Of a stretch of DNA of 64,000 bases, positions 51,431 through 64,000 are shown one piece after another (position 1 is the stretch's first letter; each line of letters begins with the position of its first letter). The notes beneath the pieces are model-generated. The model was not told where the DNA came from. It saw only the letters and a program-made list of their open reading frames with translations, and did not search any database. The DNA comes from Anaerolineae bacterium (lineage in GTDB: Bacteria > Chloroflexota > Anaerolineae > Caldilineales > Caldilineaceae), in contig JAUIHI010000006.1 of NCBI GenBank assembly GCA_030432295.1, forward strand, positions 186,001-250,000, in the 5' to 3' direction. Made by a program: the position numbers and the translations under genes.

Positions 51431-52558
51431 CTACGATGTCCGCAACAGTTTGCGGACCGACCACCGCAGAAAACCGGACAGCGCAGGCGTGCCCGCGTGT
51501 AATTGGGTGTAGCCAATGAATCCTCCGGGTTTTTCACCCAAAACTCCAGCGGCGGCCTGGGCATGGTAACGCTGATAGAATTGCCAGGCGTGTCCGAACT
51601 GTCCAGGCAGGTGGGGTGGTCGGGCCAGGGCGCGAAAGAGTCTCTCTTCCACGCCGGAAACTGATATCTGGCCTAGCCGTTCCATCGACGCGTCTGGAGC
51701 CGTCCCAACAAAGAGACGGTTGAGATAGGCCAGGCTAGCGCGAACCGGCAATGCCACCCGGTGCTGCTGGGAAACTTGCACAAGTCGCTCCCAATCCACC
51801 CCATCCTTTCCATCCTCTGCCCGGCGCAGAAGCAGAACCATCTCGGCCAGTCTGTCGTAGCGGGGCAGCGGTGCCCAAGCGCAGGCAAGGGTGGCGAGAC
51901 GCGCGATCTGGTGCGCGGGCTGTAGCACCTGGACGGTGCGATCTGACACAGAAAGTGAACGAGTCTCTGTCCAAAAGGTCTCATCCCCACCATTCCCCTG
52001 CCAATCGCCGAGTGCACGCCAATGGAGCGTGACTGTGCGTCCCTGGGCGTTGGCAAAAGGCTGGGAAGGGCGAATCTGGCGGGCTGCTGGAGTCAATTGC
52101 TCCGGGGCGCGGCCCACGGGCTGCCAGCCCCGACGCGTCAGCAGAGCGATGGCGGTGGGTATCTGTTCGGGGCGAACGAGCAGGTCCGTATCAGCAGAGG
52201 GAAGTGGATGCTCCTCCACGGCAGTAGGTGGACTTTGCAGTAGTAGGGCAGGAATTCCGGCGTCTTGCAGGGCAGCTACAACCCCAGCCCCGACCTGTTG
52301 CTGCAACTGACCCTCGGTCCAGGCCCGGCGGTAGATGCCTTTGAGCCGATCCATCACTGGATCATCTGTGCCGTTTTGTTGAAGGGTCCGATAGACCAGA
52401 GGCAGCAGTCGGAAACTACCCACGTCCCACTGTTTCCGCTCAAAATTCACCCGGGCGTGCCATTCCGCCCAGGCAGCGATGGCCTCCGTGCCGGGTAGCA
52501 GGGCCGCGGCCAGGAGAAGTTCCTGTTCCGGGTGGGGGTAGAAGGGGGGGGGGGTCAT
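51431..52558 (-). CDS. NTP_transf_5-type nucleotidyltransferase family protein
   Basis: 375 residues. The central block LLQSPPTAVEEHPLPSADTD with LLVRPEQIPTAIALLTRRGW resembles the PF14907 family (nucleotidyltransferase-like, often found in polysaccharide clusters), where Asp residues in SADTDLL would bind metal. The usual KG before the first Asp is replaced by QS, so catalysis is uncertain. A short helical tail follows. Its ATG overlaps the stop of the GH130-like gene (ATGA). Confidence 0.6.
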   Translation of the reverse strand: MTPPPFYPHPEQELLLAAALLPGTEAIAAWAEWHARVNFERKQWDVGSFRLLPLVYRTLQQNGTDDPVMDRLKGIYRRAWTEGQLQQQVGAGVVAALQDAGIPALLLQSPPTAVEEHPLPSADTDLLVRPEQIPTAIALLTRRGWQPVGRAPEQLTPAARQIRPSQPFANAQGRTVTLHWRALGDWQGNGGDETFWTETRSLSVSDRTVQVLQPAHQIARLATLACAWAPLPRYDRLAEMVLLLRRAEDGKDGVDWERLVQVSQQHRVALPVRASLAYLNRLFVGTAPDASMERLGQISVSGVEERLFRALARPPHLPGQFGHAWQFYQRYHAQAAAGVLGEKPGGFIGYTQLHAGTPALSGFLRWSVRKLLRTS

Positions 52559-53625
52559 TGCTGGGCGTCGTCCGATGGCTTGTGCTGATTGGGCAAGTGT
52601 ATGGATGGCACAACGCGTAAACAGCAGCGCTCGTCGTGCAGGCCGTAGGAGACCAGCCAGTCGTTGTCGTGCCAGGGCACTGCGCCGCAGGGATAGACGA
52701 CCGACTCGGCTGTCGGGTTGATACGACGCCGGTGGGAGCGAGATGGCTCCGTCTCAGGCCGCAGCACCGGTTCGGTGGCGAGCCAAAGAGGTGCGAAAGG
52801 CGGCTTCGCTTCGAAGGCATAGACGCCTCCGTAATAACGCCGCTGATCCAATAGCCATTCGATGCGCCGCAACGCCGCTACCAGATAGCGGGGTAGACGC
52901 TGCACCAACTTCCCCGGCCAGAAAGGCAACAGGTGTCGCAGCGGCCCAACTTGGATGCGGGAATGAAAGAATGAGATGTAGACATCGCCCTGTCGAATTG
53001 GGGGCGCACCACCGCAGGACACGCCATAGCGGCTGGCATAGGGCGCTACATCCCAGGCTGTGGAATGCAGAGGCTGGCAGATCACCGGCCCGACACCGCT
53101 TAAGTCTACACGCAAGATAGTGTGTGGGTTAATCTGATAGACCGCATACAATTCGCCGTCGTGGGAAAAGAACATCCAATTCTTCTCAATTTCCTGGCGG
53201 GGTCCGTTTAGTTGGAGGGGGCGGGGCGGGGATTTGGCTTCCAAGCTGTCGGGATCAACTTCGACAATGGAAATCTGGTTGGGCCGAGTTGTGAAGTTGT
53301 TGTTGTAGTGGATGAAGATGCGATCTTGGTGGACCAAGAAGCGGGGATCATAGTGCCGGGAATCGCTATCAGGGATAGTGTCGGAGAAGGGCACGACTGA
53401 ACCGGGTATGACGTTCAGGTGTTCGTCCAGTTTGCACAGACCGATCCGACGTTGCATAGTTCGTCGGTAGCCGGAATCGACGCGATAGGCCATGAGCAGA
53501 CGACCACGGAAGCGGACGATGGCTGGGTTGTACACGCGGAAAGTCCGGAGCAGCACATAGTGCTGCCACTGGACAGGAAGAAGTGATTGCGGGTTGAATT
53601 CAATCGATAAAGCGGACATAGACAT
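52555..53625 (-). CDS. GH130-like five-bladed propeller protein
   Basis: 356 residues from the ATG at 53625 (AGG seven bases upstream); another ATG 12 codons earlier is possible. The blade HYDPRFLVHQDRIFIHYNN has the DPR motif of GH130 mannoside phosphorylases, and VYPCGAVPWHDNDWLVSYG is the typical last-blade GxV...Y-G pattern. GH130 enzymes phosphorolyse beta-mannosides. The presence in a biosynthetic operon suggests trimming or a structural role. It sits about 120-155 bases after sulfotransferase 3, the largest gap in the chain. Confidence 0.68.
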   Translation of the reverse strand: MSMSALSIEFNPQSLLPVQWQHYVLLRTFRVYNPAIVRFRGRLLMAYRVDSGYRRTMQRRIGLCKLDEHLNVIPGSVVPFSDTIPDSDSRHYDPRFLVHQDRIFIHYNNNFTTRPNQISIVEVDPDSLEAKSPPRPLQLNGPRQEIEKNWMFFSHDGELYAVYQINPHTILRVDLSGVGPVICQPLHSTAWDVAPYASRYGVSCGGAPPIRQGDVYISFFHSRIQVGPLRHLLPFWPGKLVQRLPRYLVAALRRIEWLLDQRRYYGGVYAFEAKPPFAPLWLATEPVLRPETEPSRSHRRRINPTAESVVYPCGAVPWHDNDWLVSYGLHDERCCLRVVPSIHLPNQHKPSDDAQQ

Positions 53626-53781
53626 CGCCAACCTGCCGACCCCCGATAGCTCGATAGGCATCGAGCTTAGGCATGACTTTACTTAGTGGCACCCAGTGCG
53701 GAAGCGACCATTTCATCGTGTCTGCCACCGAGAAAAACGATTGGCCGGAGTAGTGCCTTGATAGTTTGTCTCATAGATGCC

Positions 53782-54531
53782 TCACAACTGCCCCACCGAT
53801 ATAGTTTGCAGGCGTTCTTCCACGGCGTCGCAACCCAACATCCAACAGAACCGTTGAATCCAGCGAGGCGCCGGGTGTAATAAGTCGGAAACAAAGAGAT
53901 GTTCCATTGAGACTGGGATCAAGGGAAAGCCAAAATCGGTGATGAGTCTATTGCAAATAGCCTGACTCGTGCCGGGGAGTTGCGCCGACGCAATGACTAA
54001 CGTTTCGTCAGGAAAACGTGCCTGGTAGGTACAGATCAATCCGTTGTAGGCTCGCCAAAGACGGACAGCGCTGACAGGATCAATGAGCAAATGCCGTCGG
54101 CGCTGTTTAAGTCCGCGGGTTAACAGGGATGTCACCACTTCAGCGCAGGGACGCCAGATTAGAATGGCTTTCAGCTCGGGAATTATCGCTCTCCATGCAG
54201 GCAAGAAGAGGGTTGTCCGCGGATCTTTCCAGCCCCAGTCTGGATAGCAGGCAGTCCGCTCAGCAACCAACTGCCGGGCACACACGCGTTCTTCCGGCGA
54301 GAATAACTGGAATTTCCGGGGTCGCAGCTTCCAGCCAGCAGTTGTGGTCCTTTTTCGTCGGATATGCCTGGCGTGTAGCCGTACAAAGTCGAGGTCTTCG
54401 TAATAGCCGTGTGGATTGGAGATGTCCGGTTCGATGCTTCCGGCCTTCGCCATTGGTAGTCCGGATTCGGCCAGCCAGCGGGCAACCAAAGACGTGCCAG
54501 AGCGATGCATGCCCGCCACGCAACAGATCAT
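53782..54531 (-). CDS. sulfotransferase-like P-loop protein (third)
   Basis: 249 residues. GMHRSGTSLVARWL near the start is the phosphate-binding loop of sulfotransferases, with ESGLPMAKAG and later GWKDPRTTLFLP (a 3'-phosphate region containing Lys-Asp-Pro-Arg) and IWRPCAEVVTSLL. It resembles the Sulfotransfer_3/Stf-like group found in exopolysaccharide clusters, using PAPS to sulfate a sugar hydroxyl. It is coupled to GT2 by a four-base overlap. The 31-codon frame just after it (53678-53770) is not called. Confidence 0.8.
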   Translation of the reverse strand: MICCVAGMHRSGTSLVARWLAESGLPMAKAGSIEPDISNPHGYYEDLDFVRLHARHIRRKRTTTAGWKLRPRKFQLFSPEERVCARQLVAERTACYPDWGWKDPRTTLFLPAWRAIIPELKAILIWRPCAEVVTSLLTRGLKQRRRHLLIDPVSAVRLWRAYNGLICTYQARFPDETLVIASAQLPGTSQAICNRLITDFGFPLIPVSMEHLFVSDLLHPAPRWIQRFCWMLGCDAVEERLQTISVGQL

Positions 54532-55469
54532 GACTGCCTCCGACAGCGTGGCGGCAGAGGCGTCATCAGCAATTGCCGTCCATGCTGCTGCAAGCGGGCG
54601 CGTGCCTGAGTTGGCGTCAGCAGAAAGCTAACCAGCCAGAAGATGCTACCGGCCATCGAATACGCCAAACGCAGGCCCCATGCGGCAAGCCGTCCCCAGT
54701 ATTTTTCGGTGTAACGATACCGTGATTGCAGAAGATGTTGACCAATCATTCCGTTCAACAAAGCGCTCCTATCCGGTGTGCTTGCGCCACCTATATGGGT
54801 GACGACTGCATCCGGAACGAGCATGGCCTGCCAGCCAACTCGCTGCGCCCGCCAGCAGAGGTCACCATCCTCGCAATACATAAAGAACCTCTCATCCAAC
54901 CCGTTCAGTTCCTCGAACAATTCTCGCCGCACCAGCATGGCCGCACCAGTGATGGCCTCAACCAATTGGGGTTTGTCGGCGGCAATATTCCACGTGTCGT
55001 GGCGCAGCATCCATCCTCGTACGCTGCGAAGCGGTCCAGCGCCGACACCAAACCAGAAAAAGCTCCAGGGCGTCTCGAAGCCAAAACAGTTGTGGCGAAT
55101 GCGGCCAGTAGCATCCAGAATACGCGGTGCGCAGATGCCCACATTCGGGTGAGTGTCCAGGAAGCCCACCAACCGATCAATGGCGGCATCATTGATGACT
55201 GTATCGGGGTTGAGCAGGTATAAATAACGCCCTTCAGCCAACCGACTGGCCTGATTGATGGCAACAGCAAAGCCGGTGTTCTCTCTGTTTGCCAGCAAGC
55301 ATATGGATGGCAAAGCGGACACTTGCTCTAGGGTCTCATCACTCGATGCATTGTCCACAAGAATAATCTTGCAGGCTGTGTCAGTGTGGCGTGCAAGAGA
55401 ATCTAGACATGCGCTGATCTGGGCGGCGCTGTTGTGGGTGACAATCAGGATAGAGATATCGGGTTGCAT
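54528..55469 (-). CDS. GT2 glycosyltransferase (WbbL/rhamnosyltransferase-like)
   Basis: 313 residues. ISILIVTHNSAAQISACLDS is the GT-A opening; LVDNASSD and YLLNPDTVIND give the metal-binding D-x-D equivalent (NPDT). GAAMLVRRELFEELNGLDE and YCEDGDLCWRA fit rhamnosyl- or similar transferases. It ends with a hydrophobic segment (AGSIFWLVSFLLT) that could attach it to the membrane. It adds a sugar to a lipid- or glycan-linked acceptor. Five bases follow the previous stop, and four are shared with the next gene. Confidence 0.88.
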   Translation of the reverse strand: MQPDISILIVTHNSAAQISACLDSLARHTDTACKIILVDNASSDETLEQVSALPSICLLANRENTGFAVAINQASRLAEGRYLYLLNPDTVINDAAIDRLVGFLDTHPNVGICAPRILDATGRIRHNCFGFETPWSFFWFGVGAGPLRSVRGWMLRHDTWNIAADKPQLVEAITGAAMLVRRELFEELNGLDERFFMYCEDGDLCWRAQRVGWQAMLVPDAVVTHIGGASTPDRSALLNGMIGQHLLQSRYRYTEKYWGRLAAWGLRLAYSMAGSIFWLVSFLLTPTQARARLQQHGRQLLMTPLPPRCRRQS

Positions 55470-55474
55470 AAGGG

Positions 55475-56203
55475 TTAAGTGGAAATTACCTGATCAGCTA
55501 ATGGGCTGCGATGAAAGACATCGACAAGTTCTGCATAATTGCTAACAAATTCACGGTACGGTTGACGCCAGGTACGATGTACAGGCGAATCTGCACAAAT
55601 GCGGCCTATTTCCAGGAAATCACATATCTGATCAAGCGTAGATTGCCAGACCAGATTCTCCTGCAAATGGTTCTCATAGATAATTCCCAGATGGGGAATG
55701 GCCTGCATGATAGCTTCACAGCGAATCTCCTGGTCATAGACAAACGACGCAATTTGCATAAATTCATCTGGGTCAATGGTCACTGAAAGCGTTTCACCGC
55801 GACTTTGGCCAATGCTGATCCAATGAGCAGTCGTTTTTCCGACCATCGCAGATAGGGAACGAGCGAACACGGAACGCCGCCGAATATAGATGATCCGCCA
55901 GCCTTTATCCTGCAATGCCAACAGCAACCGCTCTGGTTCTGCCACATGGCGCTCAAACAGCTTAAAACCATAGACAGGACGCCGTGTCCGCAGTTTTATA
56001 TAGAACTTGCGCGTGGCAATATAGGGGAGCGGGTTAACTCGCCATAATTTGTAGAGGCGCTGAGACCGTGTTGGACGCGACCAAAAAGTTGGGTTGAACA
56101 ACTCGCCATCGCAGTGAATGGCCGGGTGGGCGTTTAGCAGGCTTTTCAGTAATGTGCTGCCTGTGCGCGCCGTCCCAAACAGAACGAAGGGCCTCGTGTT
56201 CAC
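55475..56203 (-). CDS. sulfotransferase (second)
   Basis: 242 residues from a GTG at 56203, one base after the methyltransferase stop; an ATG at 56236 would overlap that gene by 32 bases. The PAPS 5' loop is FGTARTGSTLLKSLL, and IYIRRRSVFARSLS is the likely 3'-phosphate region. LNAHPAIHCDGELF resembles the Stf0-type carbohydrate sulfotransferases. Its sequence differs from the sulfotransferases at 53782 and 57070, so the three are not recent copies. Confidence 0.85.
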   Translation of the reverse strand: MNTRPFVLFGTARTGSTLLKSLLNAHPAIHCDGELFNPTFWSRPTRSQRLYKLWRVNPLPYIATRKFYIKLRTRRPVYGFKLFERHVAEPERLLLALQDKGWRIIYIRRRSVFARSLSAMVGKTTAHWISIGQSRGETLSVTIDPDEFMQIASFVYDQEIRCEAIMQAIPHLGIIYENHLQENLVWQSTLDQICDFLEIGRICADSPVHRTWRQPYREFVSNYAELVDVFHRSPLADQVIST

Positions 56204-56204
56204 T

Positions 56205-57059
56205 TTACGGACGTTTCTTTCCAAAAGGCAAATCATGCGAGCCGCGAATCTGAGAGACCAAATTTAATGGTTGGGTTTGATGTTTTTCTATCACCAGTGC
56301 ATAGGGATAAAAGTGGATGGAATGTACTGTCTTTTGAAACTGTGTTGTAGCAGATTGCCCTTTGACGGCATGTATATGATTTAACTGATGAATCAGCCCT
56401 GCCGCATAGGCTGCAAATTTATTGTGGATGCCATGAATGTCTTCGCAGATATACACCCCACCGGGCTGGAGGTGTGGCAACATTTCCTCAAGGGTTGTAA
56501 TCTGTTGATCGGGTCGATGGCCGCCATCATCTATCAGGATGTCAACTTCGCTTACCTGTTCTTTGAAGGCAGACCAAAACTGACGATCTTGCTGGTCGCC
56601 TATGAAAATCGACACATTGTCTCGCTCGTGTTTCTTACATTCTGGTTCGATATCGATGCCATAAACATGGCATCGGTCGCCAAAATAGGCAGTCCACATA
56701 TCCAGACTACCTCCGCCGAATACGCCAACTTCCACAACATGAGCCGGTTGTCCGACAAAGCGACTCAAGTGGCGATGATAGAGATCGAAATAGTGCTCCC
56801 ATTTCCAAATTAGGTTCCCCTGGCTGTGATTGATGAAATAATCCCACAATGGATTAGCGGTCTGCACCTGTACCGAATCTTGCTGAACAACGGGCAAACT
56901 ATTTTTCCAGGAAGGCGTGAAGCTCAAGCCACAACACACCAGCGGTAAATTTCTTAAGATATGGCGTGCATACCCTGGATTTTGCCGATATGCGGTAAGC
57001 ATTTCACGTACAGCAGCAAATCGAATCAGCCAGCGACCAACTCTTCGTTTTTTCACCAT
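56205..57059 (-). CDS. MycE-type sugar O-methyltransferase
   Basis: 284 residues. VVEVGVFGGGSLDMW binds SAM, and VDILIDDGGHRPDQQ is the acidic DDGGH block of metal-dependent macrolide-sugar O-methyltransferases such as MycE (and of CmcI-like proteins). It probably methylates a sugar hydroxyl. GGAGG sits two bases before the ATG and five before the next codon (GTG), so translation may start one residue later. It follows the sulfotransferase at 57070 by ten bases. Confidence 0.83.
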   Translation of the reverse strand: MVKKRRVGRWLIRFAAVREMLTAYRQNPGYARHILRNLPLVCCGLSFTPSWKNSLPVVQQDSVQVQTANPLWDYFINHSQGNLIWKWEHYFDLYHRHLSRFVGQPAHVVEVGVFGGGSLDMWTAYFGDRCHVYGIDIEPECKKHERDNVSIFIGDQQDRQFWSAFKEQVSEVDILIDDGGHRPDQQITTLEEMLPHLQPGGVYICEDIHGIHNKFAAYAAGLIHQLNHIHAVKGQSATTQFQKTVHSIHFYPYALVIEKHQTQPLNLVSQIRGSHDLPFGKKRP

Positions 57060-57069
57060 TGCCTCCGGG

Positions 57070-57966
57070 TCATTCTACCAACCAATGAGTCAAGTCGCGT
57101 CCGATCAAGTCTTGCAAGCGCAAGATATCGTCGCGCTGGGGAAGTGTTAGTGCCTTACGCACTTGTGGGTTCAATGTTGGAACTGGTGTCTGATTCCAGT
57201 TGCGCAAAAACTGGGCAGCCTTCTTGCGCATTGGTTGGGGGGCGATAAGTTTGATCAACGGCTTTAATCGCATATTATGCGTCAATAGTCGTACAATAAG
57301 GGAACTGCGTGTGCCAGCACCTCGGTTGTAAACTATAGATACATTTGGCACAAACTCACTATCTACATCCAGAAAAACATACAATGTCTGCATGAAAGTA
57401 GCCGGGTTGGTTAGAAGGTCGTCATACAAACCAATATAAATCTGGTCTTGTGAAAACCGCGTCAACCAATCCTGAATTCTCGAGACATACCAGCCAGCAT
57501 CAAGATAATGCGGTAAGCGCGTTTCAAAACGTTGTTTCCATCGCCGAGTTGAATCACTGTATGCAGTGACAAAGTCCTTCTCTGGTTCATTACCTCTCAA
57601 TCGCTGCATCAAGAATGCCGAATAGCTCCGATCAACCGGCTGGCGTAAGATACAGATGAACTTGCCATCCGGGAGATAGTGTTGAATGCGCTGGCAAGAG
57701 CGGGCTTCGATGTTGCTAGTCGACGCTTCTCCGATTGCCCTTTGCCTATCAACATCCTGGAACAGGGCTTGATAATCTGCTGACGTTTGTATGGCCCAGT
57801 GGCGGCCCGGGAAATTCAAAGGCGTTTGTTCTGCTTCACCAAACTCAAAGAAATCCGGCTCCTTCACAGAACTCATGAAAATTTGTGGATGCTGCGCCAG
57901 ATAGGCGTAGACTGACGTGGTGCCAGATTTGGCAACACCGATGAGGAGGAAATTTGGCATAGTCAT
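57070..57966 (-). CDS. sulfotransferase (first, heparan-type fold)
   Basis: 298 residues from the ATG at 57966 (GGAG nine bases upstream). IGVAKSGTTSVYAYL is the PAPS 5'-phosphosulfate loop and ILRQPVDRSYSAFLMQR the 3'-phosphate region; KEPDFF between them is family-typical. This is the best match to the Sulfotransfer_1 type of glycan-modifying enzymes. It uses PAPS as donor. The acceptor is presumably the glycan made by the operon. Confidence 0.9.
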   Translation of the reverse strand: MTMPNFLLIGVAKSGTTSVYAYLAQHPQIFMSSVKEPDFFEFGEAEQTPLNFPGRHWAIQTSADYQALFQDVDRQRAIGEASTSNIEARSCQRIQHYLPDGKFICILRQPVDRSYSAFLMQRLRGNEPEKDFVTAYSDSTRRWKQRFETRLPHYLDAGWYVSRIQDWLTRFSQDQIYIGLYDDLLTNPATFMQTLYVFLDVDSEFVPNVSIVYNRGAGTRSSLIVRLLTHNMRLKPLIKLIAPQPMRKKAAQFLRNWNQTPVPTLNPQVRKALTLPQRDDILRLQDLIGRDLTHWLVE

Positions 57967-57987
57967 AAAGGCGAACTCCACAGCACT

Positions 57988-58755
57988 TCAATCTGTCTGT
58001 CCTGCTCCCTCACGGGCAACAATCACCAGCTCACCCTGATGCCACTCGTCTTCGAAATTCTGAGTGGCGTTATAGAAATTTAGCGAGCACCCCCGCCGGA
58101 AACAGTCATGCAATTCGATAACGATCACACTTACCATATTGATCCAGGCAGAGGGGGCAGCAAACACTTCCACTTCAGCGCCCTCTATGTCGATTTTCAA
58201 TAAATCGATCATGGTCAATCCGTTTGTAGACAATAGGTCAACTACGGTCATGGTGGGCGTATGTTCCAGCACAACTGCCTCTGGGTCATTCCCACCCCAG
58301 ATTTGGAACGTTCCATGACGTGCCAGTGGATTAACAATGGCAATCTGGTCCAATCTGTCCCACAAAGCCGCCCGAATCGGTGTAATCTGAGGATAAGCAG
58401 TCACATTTTTACACAGCTGGCTGAAGTTTGCACTGGCTGGCTCCAGAGCCAGAATACGCGCATCCGGATACTGGTTGGCATAGTAGAGGCTGGTCAGCCC
58501 AATATTAGCCCCAGCGTCCACGATGACCCGTAATGGTCGCTCCAATGGCAACGCGTAGGCCATGCGCATAAATATCTCGTCACAGAAGCCAACGTCTGAT
58601 GTCCCCAAGCGCAGATAAATCGGCGAACGGCACTCCGGAACGGTCACGGCAACTTCGCCGCGGCGGCCCAGTATCTCGGCGTAGATAAAGTAGAATAGAC
58701 CACGCCAACCAAAGACGCGCTGGTAGCGACGCAACCAAGCCCGTTTCCTTCTCAT
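57988..58755 (-). CDS. FkbM family methyltransferase
   Basis: 255 residues. VDAGANIGLTSLYYA binds SAM, ILALEPASANF follows, and LLKIDIEGAEVEVF is the FkbM signature (DIEGAE). Such enzymes O-methylate sugars or polyketides. The ATG overlaps the GT4 stop (ATGA). With the MycE-type enzyme it gives the operon two different O-methylation steps. Confidence 0.9.
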   Translation of the reverse strand: MRRKRAWLRRYQRVFGWRGLFYFIYAEILGRRGEVAVTVPECRSPIYLRLGTSDVGFCDEIFMRMAYALPLERPLRVIVDAGANIGLTSLYYANQYPDARILALEPASANFSQLCKNVTAYPQITPIRAALWDRLDQIAIVNPLARHGTFQIWGGNDPEAVVLEHTPTMTVVDLLSTNGLTMIDLLKIDIEGAEVEVFAAPSAWINMVSVIVIELHDCFRRGCSLNFYNATQNFEDEWHQGELVIVAREGAGQTD

Positions 58756-59978
58756 CGCGTCCTTCTTCTCAAGGTTGCCAGACCTCGACGGGAGCGGATG
58801 AACAGAGAAAGCAGGGGGGCAGGCAAAAAGTCATGAAAACTGAATGGAGACTCTCTGCTGAGCAAGCGGACGTGCCTGCTGGATTGAGCCAGGGAATAAC
58901 GGCCTGCTGCAAGTTGCTCCAGCAGGTCAAGATAACGCTGTCCCATGACCTCTATAGAGAAAAAGGTCCGGGCACGCTTCATGGAAGCAGAGCTGCACGC
59001 CTGCCATATCTGTTCATCTGCGGCCAAGTCGGCCACGCACCGGGCGAAGTCTTCCGCATCGTCTACTGTAGCTAGAAAACCGCTAACTCCATCCTCGATG
59101 GCTGCGTCCATGATGCCAGGCAGACGAGAAAGCACCGGCACACACCCATTTGCCTGCGCTTCCAGGCTAACCAATGGTAGTCCCTCAAAGTGGGATGGCA
59201 ACAGCAACACATGGTGGTCCCGCATGGCCTGATAAACCGTCTGGATTGACTGGGTGCCGGATAGTTCAACATGCGCCTCCATACCGTGGGCCGCAATTGC
59301 TTGTTCAAGCGCCAATCGGTCTTCGCCGTCACCGATAATGGTCAACCGCGTCGCTACGTTTTGTCGCTGTAAAATGGCAAGAATTGTAGGTAACAGGAAA
59401 ATGCCTTTATGATTTTGAGATAAATTACCTACAAAGAGCAGCCTTAGCGGTTGTTCCCAGGGGCGACGAGAGATCAAGGTATTTACCGACGGTGTCTCGA
59501 TACCATACGGAATCTCCACAATGTTCTTTTTCGGCATGGCTCTGGCAGAAGCAGAGCGAACCTTGGGGCTGACCGCAACGGCCACGTGCCAGACCCGCTG
59601 ATTCAAAGATGCGTGGCGGTAGATTCTCTCTAAATCGTTATGCAGGACGGGCACGGCGAAAACATCGTCTGGCAGGCGATGCAAGCTCAACTGGGCCGGA
59701 CGTACACCCAAGCCATTATTCAAAAAAATGACGTCGTATTTTTCTTTGGTGAAATAGTCGGCCAGGCGCAGCGCAAGTCCGGCGGTGCTTGTCCAGACTC
59801 CGGGAGCGATCAACTTGCTCCGCAGGCCGACCACCCTGATCTGAGGCCACCATTCTCCTGTGTCGCAAGCAACCACAGTCACGTCGTGCCCTGCATCCCG
59901 GAGGTAGCAACCCAGATTTAATACATAGGTTGTGACGCCGCCAACCCACATGCCACCGACAAAAAGGGCAATCTTCAT
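58752..59978 (-). CDS. GT4 family glycosyltransferase
   Basis: 408 residues with the GT-B two-domain layout: FVGGMWVGGVTTYVLNLG opens the acceptor domain, LRLLFVGNLSQNHKGI the donor domain, and LPSHFEGLPLVSLEAQANG is the E-x7-E donor-binding block. It transfers a sugar from a nucleotide donor. Its ATG overlaps the stop of the FAAL-ACP-acyltransferase gene, so glycosylation and acyl activation are coupled at translation. Confidence 0.9.
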   Translation of the reverse strand: MKIALFVGGMWVGGVTTYVLNLGCYLRDAGHDVTVVACDTGEWWPQIRVVGLRSKLIAPGVWTSTAGLALRLADYFTKEKYDVIFLNNGLGVRPAQLSLHRLPDDVFAVPVLHNDLERIYRHASLNQRVWHVAVAVSPKVRSASARAMPKKNIVEIPYGIETPSVNTLISRRPWEQPLRLLFVGNLSQNHKGIFLLPTILAILQRQNVATRLTIIGDGEDRLALEQAIAAHGMEAHVELSGTQSIQTVYQAMRDHHVLLLPSHFEGLPLVSLEAQANGCVPVLSRLPGIMDAAIEDGVSGFLATVDDAEDFARCVADLAADEQIWQACSSASMKRARTFFSIEVMGQRYLDLLEQLAAGRYSLAQSSRHVRLLSRESPFSFHDFLPAPLLSLFIRSRRGLATLRRRTR

Positions 59979-62900
59979 GAGGTCACGCCGTTTGTAATCG
60001 CTGGTCTTTGGAGATGCCGTTGAATCGTCCCTGCCAGCAGCGATTCAGGATGTCTTCGCCAACTTGACTCCAGAAAGTCCGCATAGCAATCAATCATCTG
60101 CCGTACATAGTCCGCCTGATCGTTGAACGCCCCCGCAGCTGGGAAAGCGGGCCCAAACACAGTACGGATATGACCATCGGGCTGGCAGAATGCAAAGCAG
60201 GGGAGAATCACTGCCTCTGTGGACCAGGCTATCTCCGCAAAGGTCGGCTTGAATTCGTATTTCCTGCCTGCAATTTGGCAGGGCACGACGCCTTCTGGGG
60301 TGTATCCAAAGTCATTGGCAATTGCCACGACACCACCGGCGCGCAAAGTGTGATATCCAAGGATCATACGTTCAGCTGTCGCCGCTTGCAATTCCAAAGC
60401 AATTGGTGCGTCAGTTTCTTGCGACATCTGAACTGCCTTCCGTCCTCCGTATTGAACCAAGTGGATTATAGGTCCTCGTTCGACTAGGCTTTCGATGACG
60501 GCACTGGCAAATGGTAGCCCTGGTGAATGGTATGTGACGAGGAGCACGCCTTTCCCACGATCTAGCGCGGTCTCCAGATGATTCCAACCCGTGAATGAAA
60601 AAGCAGACTCGGTTTTCTCTATGTCTTCATCTTCCATAATGCGCCATAGCTGTTGCCAAAAAATCTGAACCGAATTTGTCAACACATCTGCAGTGTCGGC
60701 GGTCGGTCCCGATCGACTAAGTCGCCGCCACTGTCGCATCAGCATGTTCCCCACCAAGTAGGCTCGCTGGCCATCTTCCGACAGCGCCGTCTGTTTGCCC
60801 AGCGATGCCTGCATTTGGTTGAGCAATGATAGCTCGGTCCGATACAGGCCGGATTTCACCGCCAGTCGACTCCAGATATTCAGGCGGCTGCGAACCTGAT
60901 CATAGCTGCCAGAGAAGGCAACGTTTTCTAGAATCCGTTGCGCCCGCCCAACTAGGCGTCTTCGGGAAAGGCGGGCTCGCCACGAATTTCGCAGGCGGGT
61001 CTTGGGCTTGGGGATGTCTGAGCTTGCAAGCGAAACAACCTGTTTCTCTGACCTTATCATTGACGCGCTGATAACAGCATTCGGCAGTGCTTCGTCGCCG
61101 TCTAGCAACCGTACCAAATGACTTGTCGTCGGTGCCTGGAAAAATTCTATTGGCACGCGACGATCGTAGGCATCCTCCACAGCCAAGACCATCCGCAGCG
61201 CCGTCAGCGAATCGCCACCTAACTCAAAGAAATCGTCATCCGGTCGCACCGTCTCCAAGCCCAACATCTCGGCAAACAGGGTGGTCAGTGCCTGCTCCAG
61301 TAGGGCCGGTTTGTCGCGGGCCACTCGTAGCAAAGCCTCACCAGAAGAGTCTGGACGATAGCCGGAAGCCAGATATTTTTCTCGCGTGGCAGAACGTGCT
61401 ACCTTGCCACTGGTCGTTATTGCCAGCCACCCGCGCCGCACCAGGCGGATATCGGCTAGCAGGACATTCGATCCTTTATACACCTGGTGGCGAATTGCCT
61501 CTAACACGTGTGCCTCTTGATCATCAGCTAGCCTGCCACGCACTTCGCATACCAACACAGGCAGTTCAGTACCCAAAGCTGCACTATACACACCAAAAGC
61601 TGCTGCCCGCCCTCCTAAATCACCGGCAACGGCCAGGGCAATCTGCTCTAGTGATTCGGGATAGATATGCTTGCCGGCCGAAATGATCAGATCTTTTTTG
61701 CGATCTACTACGAATAGTTCGCCGTCGGCCAGATAGCCAAGGTCCCCAGTACGTAGATTTCCGGCCTTTAGTGTTTGAGCTGTTAAGTCATTTTGATGAA
61801 TATAGTGATCAAAAAGTGTTGGAGAATCGATGACAACTTCACCGAGATGTCGGTCCGGAACAGGTATTCCTACCTCATCACAGATCGTGATCATTACGCC
61901 AGGCGGAGGTGTGCCACAACTGATTACAGCGAGTGAATGTTCATCTGTGCTGCGAATGGCGAGACGCTTATCAAGCAGAATTTGTCTGTCAATGGAGTCA
62001 ATACGCGGCAGGGTATCTTGGCCCGTTAGGGATCCCATAAAAACACATTCTGTCATTCCATAACCAACTTGAACCGCTTCAGGGGTCAAGCCTATTTCGC
62101 GAAATCTCAAGGTAAAGGCTTCCAACACATCTGGACGAATCACTTCAGCACCCGCGATGAACAGGCGCATGGACCTCAGGTCCAATCCAGTTATATCACG
62201 TTGGCGGATATAACGCGTAGAGTGATTGAAGCCGAATCCTGGCATAAATGCAATTGTGCCGCAGTAGTCATGGATGGCCCGCAACAAGACGAGAGGTCGC
62301 CGCACCCAGTAGTCCGGGGGAATCGTTACGACAGGTACGCCGGTGACCAGGGGCAGCAGCAGATAGACGACCAAACCCAGATCATGATAAAACGGCGCCC
62401 AGCCGACAAACACATCTTTTTCGCTGAGTTTGAATAGGCCAACCAGCATTTGCAAGTGACGCAGAGCGTTCGCATGGGTTACGACAGCACCCTTGGGCAA
62501 GCCGGTGGTGCCACTGCTAAACTGGACATAGGCGGGGGCGGTCGCCTCTGGGGTGAAGATTGAACGACTTGAATACTGGTTTGGGGTATCAGGCGTCAAG
62601 AGGGTCTTGATATCGAACACCGTGCACGGCAACTCAGCGACCTGTTCTGTCATTGCAGTATTTAGGTCAGGCAAAGCAATTATGGCTTTCGCATGGCTGA
62701 CCTTCACGATATCACGTAATCGCTTTTGGTGGCGTACCGTCTGCTTGAAGGCAGAGGAATAGGGCGCAATTGTAGGTGTGGCTCCAACATAGAGGGTAGC
62801 AACAAGTGCCGCGATCAGCCACGGCTCGTGTTCACCGGCCAACACGACGACATCCCCCGGCCCAATTCCTGCACTTGCCATTCTACACGCGATTACCAGT

Positions 62901-63040
62901 GAATCAGCATGCAACTGGCCAAACGTTAACGATTCCGGGGCGCCGCCTGCACCCAGAAAAGTCATGATCGCTGCGTCTGGTTGTGCTGTGGTGCGTGCAA
63001 TAATTGCCTGAGTGATCGTGGAAGCGTTATTTAGGATCAT
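59975..63040 (-). CDS. FAAL-ACP-acyltransferase fusion (fatty acyl-AMP ligase, carrier, LpxL/LABLAT-like)
   Basis: 1021 residues from the ATG at 63040; an ATG at 63091 is possible but overlaps the upstream gene by 65 bases. Domain 1 (1-560): adenylate-forming ligase with FSSGTTGLPKG (174-184), GYGMTE (326-331), TGDLGYLADG (432-441) and catalytic Lys546 in TTSGKVAR, fatty-acyl-AMP-ligase-like. Domain 2 (about 570-645): acyl carrier, FFELGGDSL with Ser611 for phosphopantetheine. Domain 3 (about 680-1021): LpxL/LABLAT-like acyltransferase; the catalytic-site region is YHSPGLPF with His838, but residue 843 is Pro where family members have Asp or Glu. It likely activates a fatty acid, loads it on its own carrier and passes it to a glycan or lipid. 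Confidence 0.85.
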   Translation of the reverse strand: MILNNASTITQAIIARTTAQPDAAIMTFLGAGGAPESLTFGQLHADSLVIACRMASAGIGPGDVVVLAGEHEPWLIAALVATLYVGATPTIAPYSSAFKQTVRHQKRLRDIVKVSHAKAIIALPDLNTAMTEQVAELPCTVFDIKTLLTPDTPNQYSSRSIFTPEATAPAYVQFSSGTTGLPKGAVVTHANALRHLQMLVGLFKLSEKDVFVGWAPFYHDLGLVVYLLLPLVTGVPVVTIPPDYWVRRPLVLLRAIHDYCGTIAFMPGFGFNHSTRYIRQRDITGLDLRSMRLFIAGAEVIRPDVLEAFTLRFREIGLTPEAVQVGYGMTECVFMGSLTGQDTLPRIDSIDRQILLDKRLAIRSTDEHSLAVISCGTPPPGVMITICDEVGIPVPDRHLGEVVIDSPTLFDHYIHQNDLTAQTLKAGNLRTGDLGYLADGELFVVDRKKDLIISAGKHIYPESLEQIALAVAGDLGGRAAAFGVYSAALGTELPVLVCEVRGRLADDQEAHVLEAIRHQVYKGSNVLLADIRLVRRGWLAITTSGKVARSATREKYLASGYRPDSSGEALLRVARDKPALLEQALTTLFAEMLGLETVRPDDDFFELGGDSLTALRMVLAVEDAYDRRVPIEFFQAPTTSHLVRLLDGDEALPNAVISASMIRSEKQVVSLASSDIPKPKTRLRNSWRARLSRRRLVGRAQRILENVAFSGSYDQVRSRLNIWSRLAVKSGLYRTELSLLNQMQASLGKQTALSEDGQRAYLVGNMLMRQWRRLSRSGPTADTADVLTNSVQIFWQQLWRIMEDEDIEKTESAFSFTGWNHLETALDRGKGVLLVTYHSPGLPFASAVIESLVERGPIIHLVQYGGRKAVQMSQETDAPIALELQAATAERMILGYHTLRAGGVVAIANDFGYTPEGVVPCQIAGRKYEFKPTFAEIAWSTEAVILPCFAFCQPDGHIRTVFGPAFPAAGAFNDQADYVRQMIDCYADFLESSWRRHPESLLAGTIQRHLQRPAITNGVTS

Positions 63041-64000
63041 CTGAAGATACCATGTTGGTGACGGCGGCCCGATCAATTTTACGCATGGCATTCAACGGGA
63101 TATTCTCCACAAAAATCGCCCGCCGCGGCACTTGATGTGGTGGCAATTGTTCTCGGCAGTGATTCAGAATGGCCCGTTGTTCAACATTGGCTCCCTCAAT
63201 TACTGCTACCAGTTCCTCCAATCCATTCCGGGTAACACCAGTCACCACACAGCAGTTTCGCACGCCCGGAAAATCTATGATCGTATTTTCTGTAAGTACT
63301 GGATATACCGAGAATCCACCGATCTTCAGTATTTGTTTCTTGCGGCCAACAAAGCGTAGCGCCGGGCCATCATATGCGAATAAATCGCCGGTTTTGAACC
63401 AGCCAGCCTCGAAGTATTGCTCGTTCAACACTGGGTCGCCAAGATAACCTCGCGTAATAGGGGTGCCCTGAAGAAGTAATTCGCCATCCTCAGCGAGCTT
63501 CATTTGGTAATCGCCGCACATTTCCGAAAAAACGATCCTCTTTCCTGATGATAGCTTAGATAGGTGTCGCATCACTGGAGAAAGACATTCGGTGCTGCCA
63601 TACATATGCAAAAAGCATTCAGCGCCACGTGCAAGTAGCTCATCAGCCATAGACTCAGATACAGGTGATGCTCCCGACCCAACAAACTTGAGACAAGATA
63701 AATCAAGCATCGGCCAATTACTACTAACTTTCAACATCGAGATCATGGTAGGCAACAGAAACGTATGGGTTGGCTTGTAATGTGATATGTCCTTTGCAAA
63801 GCTGTACGGTGAAAAGGGCAAAAGGAAGTTCGAACTGCCAGAAAGCAACATGGGAAGTCCAATAAAGAGCAGTCCGCCAACGGTGAAAGGTGGCGCATAG
63901 TTGATAAAGATCGATGTGTGATCTAGTTCAAAGACCTGTATCGTATTCGATGCGGCTGCTCTGATGGCGGCCATATGCACGGGAACACCCTTGGGCATCC
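63027..64000 (-). CDS. acyl-AMP ligase / acyl-CoA synthetase, C-terminal part (cut by window edge)
   Basis: At least 324 codons are visible; the 5' part lies beyond the right edge. The window starts inside the P-loop (PKGV). Other ANL-family blocks follow: MYGSTECLSP, WFKTGDLFAYD, GRKKQILKIGGF and AMRKIDR, whose Lys is catalytic. The nearest types are acyl-CoA/AMP synthetases; whether it loads CoA or a carrier cannot be told. Its end overlaps the start of the FAAL fusion. The base composition is visibly AT-richer than most of the window. Confidence 0.87.
   Translation of the reverse strand, partial: MPKGVPVHMAAIRAAASNTIQVFELDHTSIFINYAPPFTVGGLLFIGLPMLLSGSSNFLLPFSPYSFAKDISHYKPTHTFLLPTMISMLKVSSNWPMLDLSCLKFVGSGASPVSESMADELLARGAECFLHMYGSTECLSPVMRHLSKLSSGKRIVFSEMCGDYQMKLAEDGELLLQGTPITRGYLGDPVLNEQYFEAGWFKTGDLFAYDGPALRFVGRKKQILKIGGFSVYPVLTENTIIDFPGVRNCCVVTGVTRNGLEELVAVIEGANVEQRAILNHCREQLPPHQVPRRAIFVENIPLNAMRKIDRAAVTNMVSSDDPK

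Follow-up and report, generated by a model that had tools for sequence, protein, structure and literature searches.

The window analysed here is a stretch of 64,000 nucleotides from an Anaerolineae bacterium of the Caldilineaceae (assembly GCA_030432295.1, contig JAUIHI010000006.1, positions 186,001 to 250,000). We focused on a gene in this window that encodes, in one chain, a fatty acyl-AMP ligase (FAAL) domain, a carrier domain and a predicted acyltransferase (AT) domain (Table 1). The gene is read as 1021 residues, or as 1038 from an alternative ATG at position 63091. An earlier note had proposed this three-domain fusion from landmarks in a single open frame, and every landmark that it named, including Ser611, His838 and Pro843, was found in place. 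In the 1021-residue frame, YVQFSSGTTG begins at residue 171, GYGMTE occupies residues 326-331, RTGDLG begins at residue 430, and the ligase lysine is Lys546. Each domain is matched by its own Pfam profile: AMP-binding at residues 18-413 (E = 1.3e-54), PP-binding (PF00550) at residues 583-646 (E = 1.1e-13, 51.7 bits against a cut-off of 20.8), and Lip_A_acyltrans (PF03279) at residues 807-1000 (4.5e-7 and 29.8 bits, where the gathering score is 22.3, in a search with just the C-terminal 342 residues). These separate matches, together with homologues of the same architecture, bear out the presence of three domains in a single chain. According to Pfam, none of the condensation, thioesterase and reductase release domains of a canonical nonribosomal peptide synthetase (NRPS) module is present in the 1021-residue protein.

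Among ANL ligases, the first domain is nearest to the FAALs by sequence comparison. Its best NCBIfam model is "fatty acyl-AMP ligase" (6e-91, 305.5 bits, below the model cut-off of 600), and its best matches in the PDB are 3pbk, a fatty acyl-adenylate ligase (7e-53), and 3kxw. The segment from motif A5 to GxP is 47 residues long, compared to 24-27 residues in 11 NRPS-type relatives, which is as expected of the FAAL-specific insertion when judged by length alone.

We used AlphaFold2 to model residues 670-1021 from an input alignment of five rows, comprising these residues and four relatives. The best model had a predicted template modelling score (pTM) of 0.70 and a mean predicted local distance difference test score (pLDDT) of 69.5, with the other four models at 52-58. 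When Foldseek was run against the PDB, chains of PatA or LpxM filled the first 14 hits (4.9e-8 for PatA and 2.3e-7 for LpxM). Alignment of the AT model with VIA-align gave a Z score of 17.5 for PatA (root-mean-square deviation 3.6, 223 residues), 15.4 for LpxM and 10.3 for PlsC. On the basis of these matches to PatA and LpxM, we assign the modelled C-terminal domain to the LABLAT fold, which agrees with the LpxL/LABLAT-like region suggested before and with the PF03279 match.

The H(X)4D/E motif of the LpxL and LpxM lipid A acyltransferases is absent from this domain, with Pro843 at the position of the acid, and for this reason we do not file the protein as an LpxL/LpxM enzyme. Across the 19 AT domains that make up the family described below, counterparts of both His838 and Asp910 were present in all 19. 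None had an acid five residues after the histidine, where P, M, S, Y, F, G, K, V, Q, R or I was found instead. This invariance of His838 and Asp910 held even though the relatives are merely 16-27% identical to the AT of the window. For comparison, we drew 79 rows of stand-alone LABLAT proteins from the fetched loci, two of which (L048) sit in long high-GC frames. Asp or Glu occupied the HX4 position in 67 of these 79 rows versus 0 of 19 here (Fisher p = 2e-12), and an arginine followed the block-3 acid in 60 of 79 versus 0 of 19 (Fisher p = 4e-10), although neither value is a true probability because the rows are related.

Two characterized enzymes provide precedents for a domain of this kind. 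As reported in the available parts of PMC4792965, the catalytic H126 of PatA is partnered by E200 and not by D131 of the HX4D motif, the H126A and E200A variants are inactive, and the authors proposed block-3 acids for HtrB, MsbB and PatA. The available parts of PMC9597891 describe VexE, which acylates UDP-N-acetylglucosamine (UDP-GlcNAc) from an acylated acyl carrier protein (acyl-ACP). In VexE, a tyrosine stands in place of the HX4D/E acid and can be replaced by phenylalanine; the catalytic residues are H466 and D532, the latter corresponding to PatA E200. Asp910 of the window protein falls at profile position 241. PatA residue 204 aligns at position 245, with H126 fixing the numbering, and E200 would therefore fall at 241 as well. 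By this alignment, H838 and D910 appear to supply the catalytic histidine and block-3 acid that characterize PatA/VexE-type enzymes. The spacing between them is 72 residues (55-75 across the AT family); counted from residue numbers, it is 74 in PatA and 66 in VexE. Given the invariant Asp910 and the PatA and VexE precedents, loss of the HX4 acid does not imply loss of activity and, by analogy, is probably no defect. We considered the simpler equation of a missing acid with a dead domain and disfavour it on the same grounds. The earlier note had taken Pro843 to mean either that another residue is used or that the domain is a binding module; the first option is now favoured, because Asp910 is invariant and at the position of PatA Glu200, and the second is less so. 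Our results go further than that note in two respects: the lost acid is a trait of the whole family, and the first domain is swappable.

The same genome encodes a paralogue on a different contig (L015:520-3390), likewise with all three domains. We searched 400 genomes of the phylum, 61 relatives, 82 genomes of the order of G260 and 396 genomes of the class, and found 17 further AT domains in Chloroflexota (15 fused, one fragment and one stand-alone), giving 19 with the window protein and its paralogue. A carrier and at least part of an adenylation domain were in the same chain as the AT in 17 of 19 cases, the exceptions being a contig-end fragment (G422b) and a stand-alone AT (G649a). One fusion gene (G260) is broken upstream. 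With up to five candidates scored per genome, at least 12 of the 396 genomes of the class, and at least 3 of the 400 of the phylum, carry this AT type. No orthologue was found at E = 1e-8 in six other genomes of the same genus; G408 was placed in the same family group as the genome of the window. In a quick tree, the fused-type ATs formed one clade apart from 77 stand-alone LABLATs (SH-aLRT 99, with G679 on a long branch); L012, entered there as a stand-alone row, is a truncated copy of the paralogue. Open frame 1039 of G031 and a candidate in G309 were set aside as further fusions after inspection by eye, being long high-GC frames or a stop-broken hit.

The range outside Chloroflexota was probed by matching a pair of peptide patterns drawn from a single AT subtype and by tblastn against plasmids. 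Across 84,980 species, the patterns matched 105 stretches, among them four relatives: Ca. Chloroploca sp. Khr17, Ca. Chloroploca mongolica, a Caldilineaceae metagenome-assembled genome (MAG) and a Chloroflexi MAG from Lac Pavin. A tblastn search of 72,556 plasmid records with the window AT found nothing at E = 1e-3. The family is rare and, within the sequences tested, restricted to Chloroflexota. Two of its members differ in layout. G649a (L126:7487-8392) is a 302-residue stand-alone copy of the fused-type AT near a fused one, and the domain may thus be able to act in trans as well. G679 (L129:6004-11136) is 1711 residues long and has condensation, adenylation and carrier domains followed by the same AT type, with the motif A4 aspartate kept and about 280 residues after the AT that have no Pfam match at E = 0.05.

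The adenylation domains of the fused ATs fell into two types by sequence, with 6 of 17 being FAAL-type and 11 of 17 NRPS-type. The FAAL call was made by identity to that group, not by NCBIfam, for the paralogue, G408 and G260, and the NRPS call by identity and Pfam for G649b, G637 and G679. A tree of adenylation domains split cleanly into these types. On the AT tree, the FAAL label requires 5 changes, and a single clade of FAAL-type ATs was rejected (approximately unbiased test, p = 4e-58, for a grouping named after the sequences had been seen). Pairwise identities tell the same story: the paralogue and G408 are 64% identical in the ligase and 23% in the AT, the paralogue and G267b are 18% and 52% identical, and G408 and G267a are 23% and 56% identical. 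Judging from these comparisons, the activating domain has been swapped several times in the family. In amino-acid-activating domains, the aspartate of motif A4 binds the amino group. The position aligned with this aspartate in G679 is not Asp in 10 of the 11 NRPS-type domains, whose substrates are therefore probably not ordinary amino acids.

Activation and transfer are combined in one chain in Aas (acyl-ACP synthetase/lysophospholipid O-acyltransferase), which has a PlsC-type AT at its N-terminus and is not known to have a built-in carrier. The AT of the window protein is instead C-terminal and of the PF03279 type, and the window protein matches only a ligase-side stretch of the NCBIfam model for Aas (PRK08633). 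According to the available parts of PMC11837247, the FAAL-ACP didomains HapA, NocH and AmbG have the same first two domains, with the FAAL loading the fused carrier, but they pass the chain to polyketide synthase or NRPS modules, whereas a LABLAT AT comes next in the window protein. Passages found in this 2025 review cover stand-alone, didomain and multidomain FAALs and make no mention of a FAAL-carrier-LABLAT type. PatA, the mycobacterial phosphatidylinositol mannoside acyltransferase, has the fold and the His plus block-3 acid in common with the window protein and acylates a sugar hydroxyl, but it is stand-alone, uses an acyl-CoA donor and keeps both the HX4D motif (D131) and R164 (PMC4792965, in part). 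VexE, a UDP-GlcNAc C6 acyltransferase, can be likened to the window AT by its published description, having an LPLAT domain without the HX4D/E acid, a His-Asp dyad and an acyl-ACP donor; however, it is fused to a tetratricopeptide repeat domain, while the window AT is fused to its own ligase and carrier (PMC9597891, in part). Our literature search found no description of this AT family, and on such fusions gave only one clause, in the accessible text of PMC8460268, on FAALs fused with lysophospholipid acyltransferases. The idea of a FAAL-like/LPLAT fusion is common to both, but the clause gives no sequence, phylum, carrier, motif or function to match with the window family. By analogy, these proteins may be viewed as FAAL-carrier or adenylation-carrier units with an unusual release domain, whose chemistry would resemble that of PatA and VexE.

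The fusion gene belongs to an 11-gene block, all on the minus strand with overlaps or gaps of at most 120 bases, and its own overlaps of 4 and 14 bases with its neighbours are as in an operon (Table 1). The GC content of the operon (window positions 51431-64000) is 0.534, which is lower than the 0.606 at positions 1-51000 and suggests that the operon recently arrived by horizontal acquisition. Above-cut-off Pfam matches to sulfotransferases also flank fusions in G267b, G260, G599, G635 and G502. With part of the neighbours scanned, a sulfotransferase is found by the fusion at 6 of 18 loci including the window; the matches in G408 and G267a are below the cut-off.

Table 1. Features of the window and of related loci. 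Positions without a locus name are those of the window.
Feature	Position	Strand	Remarks
Three-domain protein gene	59975..63040	-	1021 aa + stop, single uninterrupted frame
FAAL domain, residues 1-560	61361..63040	-	AMP-binding profile, FAAL models, long segment after motif A5
Carrier (PP-binding) domain, residues 583-646	61103..61294	-	PF00550; phosphopantetheine Ser611 in GGDSL
PatA/LpxM-fold (LABLAT) AT domain, residues 670-1021	59978..61033	-	PF03279 and predicted structure
His838, predicted general base	60527..60529	-	19/19 AT domains; aligned with PatA H126
Pro843, at acid position of HX4D/E	60512..60514	-	Acid in 0/19 AT domains
Asp910, predicted charge-relay partner	60311..60313	-	19/19 AT domains; PatA Glu200 position
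Second AMP-binding ligase, upstream	63027..64000	-	460 aa, runs past window to its start at 64409; overlaps fusion gene by 14 bases
GT4-type glycosyltransferase, downstream	58752..59978	-	Overlaps fusion gene by 4 bases
FkbM-type methyltransferase	57988..58755	-
Sulfotransferase	57070..57981	-	PF00685, 59 bits
Class I methyltransferase	56205..57059	-	PF13578
Sulfotransferase	55475..56236	-	PF13469, 35.2 bits
GT2 glycosyltransferase	54528..55469	-
Sulfotransferase-like protein	53782..54531	-	26.0 bits, just under cut-off of 27
GH130-like protein	52555..53661	-	22.6 bits, below cut-off of 26
NTP_transf_5 nucleotidyltransferase-like protein	51431..52558	-
Loci with NMT1-type proteins	L079, L121, L122, L124, L125, L126, L127
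Lasso-type genes	L124:1470-4350; L123:5555-7771; G564:C827:754-1080; G599:C68:23525-23848

Related loci offered hints about donors and acceptors. NMT1-type ABC substrate-binding proteins are encoded near 7 of 11 NRPS-type fusions (G267b, G603, G635, G649, G637, G564 and G502), but none was seen next to any of the 6 FAAL-type fusions (Fisher p = 0.035, a post hoc comparison in which several flanks are cut by contig ends). Perhaps these importers provide dedicated uptake of the acid to be loaded. A lasso-type B2 protease gene (PF13471) and an asparagine-synthetase-type gene lie beside the fusion in G599 and G564, these being the 2 of 12 genomes searched in which B2 adjoins it, and the two clusters possibly make acylated lasso peptides. 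The acceptor may therefore vary from cluster to cluster.

We consider it fairly probable that the fusion is a self-contained load-and-transfer enzyme that acylates the product of the sulfotransferase/glycosyltransferase operon. The FAAL domain would convert a free fatty acid and ATP to a fatty acyl-adenylate and load the acyl group onto the phosphopantetheine arm of Ser611. The PatA/VexE-like C-terminal domain would then receive this group from the carrier tethered to it and pass it on to a hydroxyl (or amine) of a small-molecule product of the operon, using His838 as general base and Asp910 as the charge-relay partner of His838. The acceptor would most likely be a glycosylated, methylated and sulfated compound. 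Several points weigh against this reading. The AT model is of moderate confidence, given its five-row alignment and the scores reported above, and no acceptor-specific gene in the operon points to the substrate. The match between Asp910 and PatA E200 was obtained by counting back four residues from the alignment as printed. Finally, all 19 fused-type ATs lack both the HxGN(W/F)(D/E)-like signature and the arginine that follows the block-3 Asp; the acceptor site is therefore different, and activity could have been lost.

It is possible, though on the unlikely side, that the acyl group goes to a peptide (a ribosomally synthesized and post-translationally modified peptide, or a lasso-type one) or to an amine and not to a glycan hydroxyl. 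The lasso-type and asparagine-synthetase-type genes in G599 and G564 speak for such acceptors, as does a PqqD gene in the paralogue locus, but no such genes were seen in the window operon, which has glycosyltransferases and sulfotransferases, and the single PF13471 match of this genome is on another contig (C52). It seems less probable still that the C-terminal domain has become catalytically inactive and now acts as a docking, membrane-binding or carrier-delivery module from which another enzyme takes the acyl chain. Absence of both the HX4D/E acid and the block-3 arginine throughout the family would fit such a loss, yet a decayed domain is not expected to retain just His838 and Asp910 at such low identity, and VexE is active without the acid. 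We regard a thioesterase-like or hydrolytic domain that frees the fatty acid as quite improbable: PatA hydrolyses acyl-CoA, and its acceptor-site variants kept palmitoyl-CoA hydrolysis (PMC4792965, in part), but it would be futile to activate a free fatty acid and then release it again by hydrolysis, and the characterized members PatA and VexE are transferases in the available descriptions. A misassembly or frameshift joining two genes would suit a gene near a contig end, as draft assemblies may be chimeric, but it has next to no likelihood in the face of the uninterrupted frame, the paralogue on another contig and the same architecture in other genomes, and the earlier note's concern about a frameshift artefact is thereby put aside.

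Beyond the load-and-transfer reading of the window protein, we tentatively suggest, as an idea somewhat short of probable, that the LABLAT-fold domain with its relocated His...Asp dyad is a general carrier off-loading domain in Chloroflexota, occupying the usual place of a thioesterase, reductase or condensation domain. It would have been paired anew with FAALs, for the cell's own fatty acids, or with adenylation domains of the NRPS type that lack the amino-acid aspartate, for acids perhaps imported by the NMT1-type ABC importers encoded alongside. Depending on the cluster, it would decorate either sulfated glycans or lasso-type peptides. If true, this would add a release chemistry to carrier-protein enzymes, namely direct O- or N-acylation by a PatA/LpxL-fold domain, with activation, holding and transfer of the acyl group all carried out by one compact protein. 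Swaps have occurred naturally at the carrier/AT boundary and suggest sites for recombining such modules. The family is also a test case for whether the HX4D/E acid matters in the LABLAT fold, and mining the clusters of uncultured Chloroflexota could turn up products that are lipidated and sulfated.

Some further features were noted around the fusions. Weak GH130-like proteins recur, being encoded in the window, twice at L079 (14132-15091 and 15992-17062) and at L125:13719-14753, with one of these four above the Pfam cut-off. An HPr-kinase-like gene lies by the fusion in G564, below the Pfam cut-off. The paralogue cluster (L015:1-14000) has ABC-transporter and GT2-like genes in addition to the PqqD gene, as well as an HPrK-like P-loop protein recognized by eye, with no Pfam match at 0.001. 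This cluster abuts a contig end with a frame that, by eye, is transposase-like.

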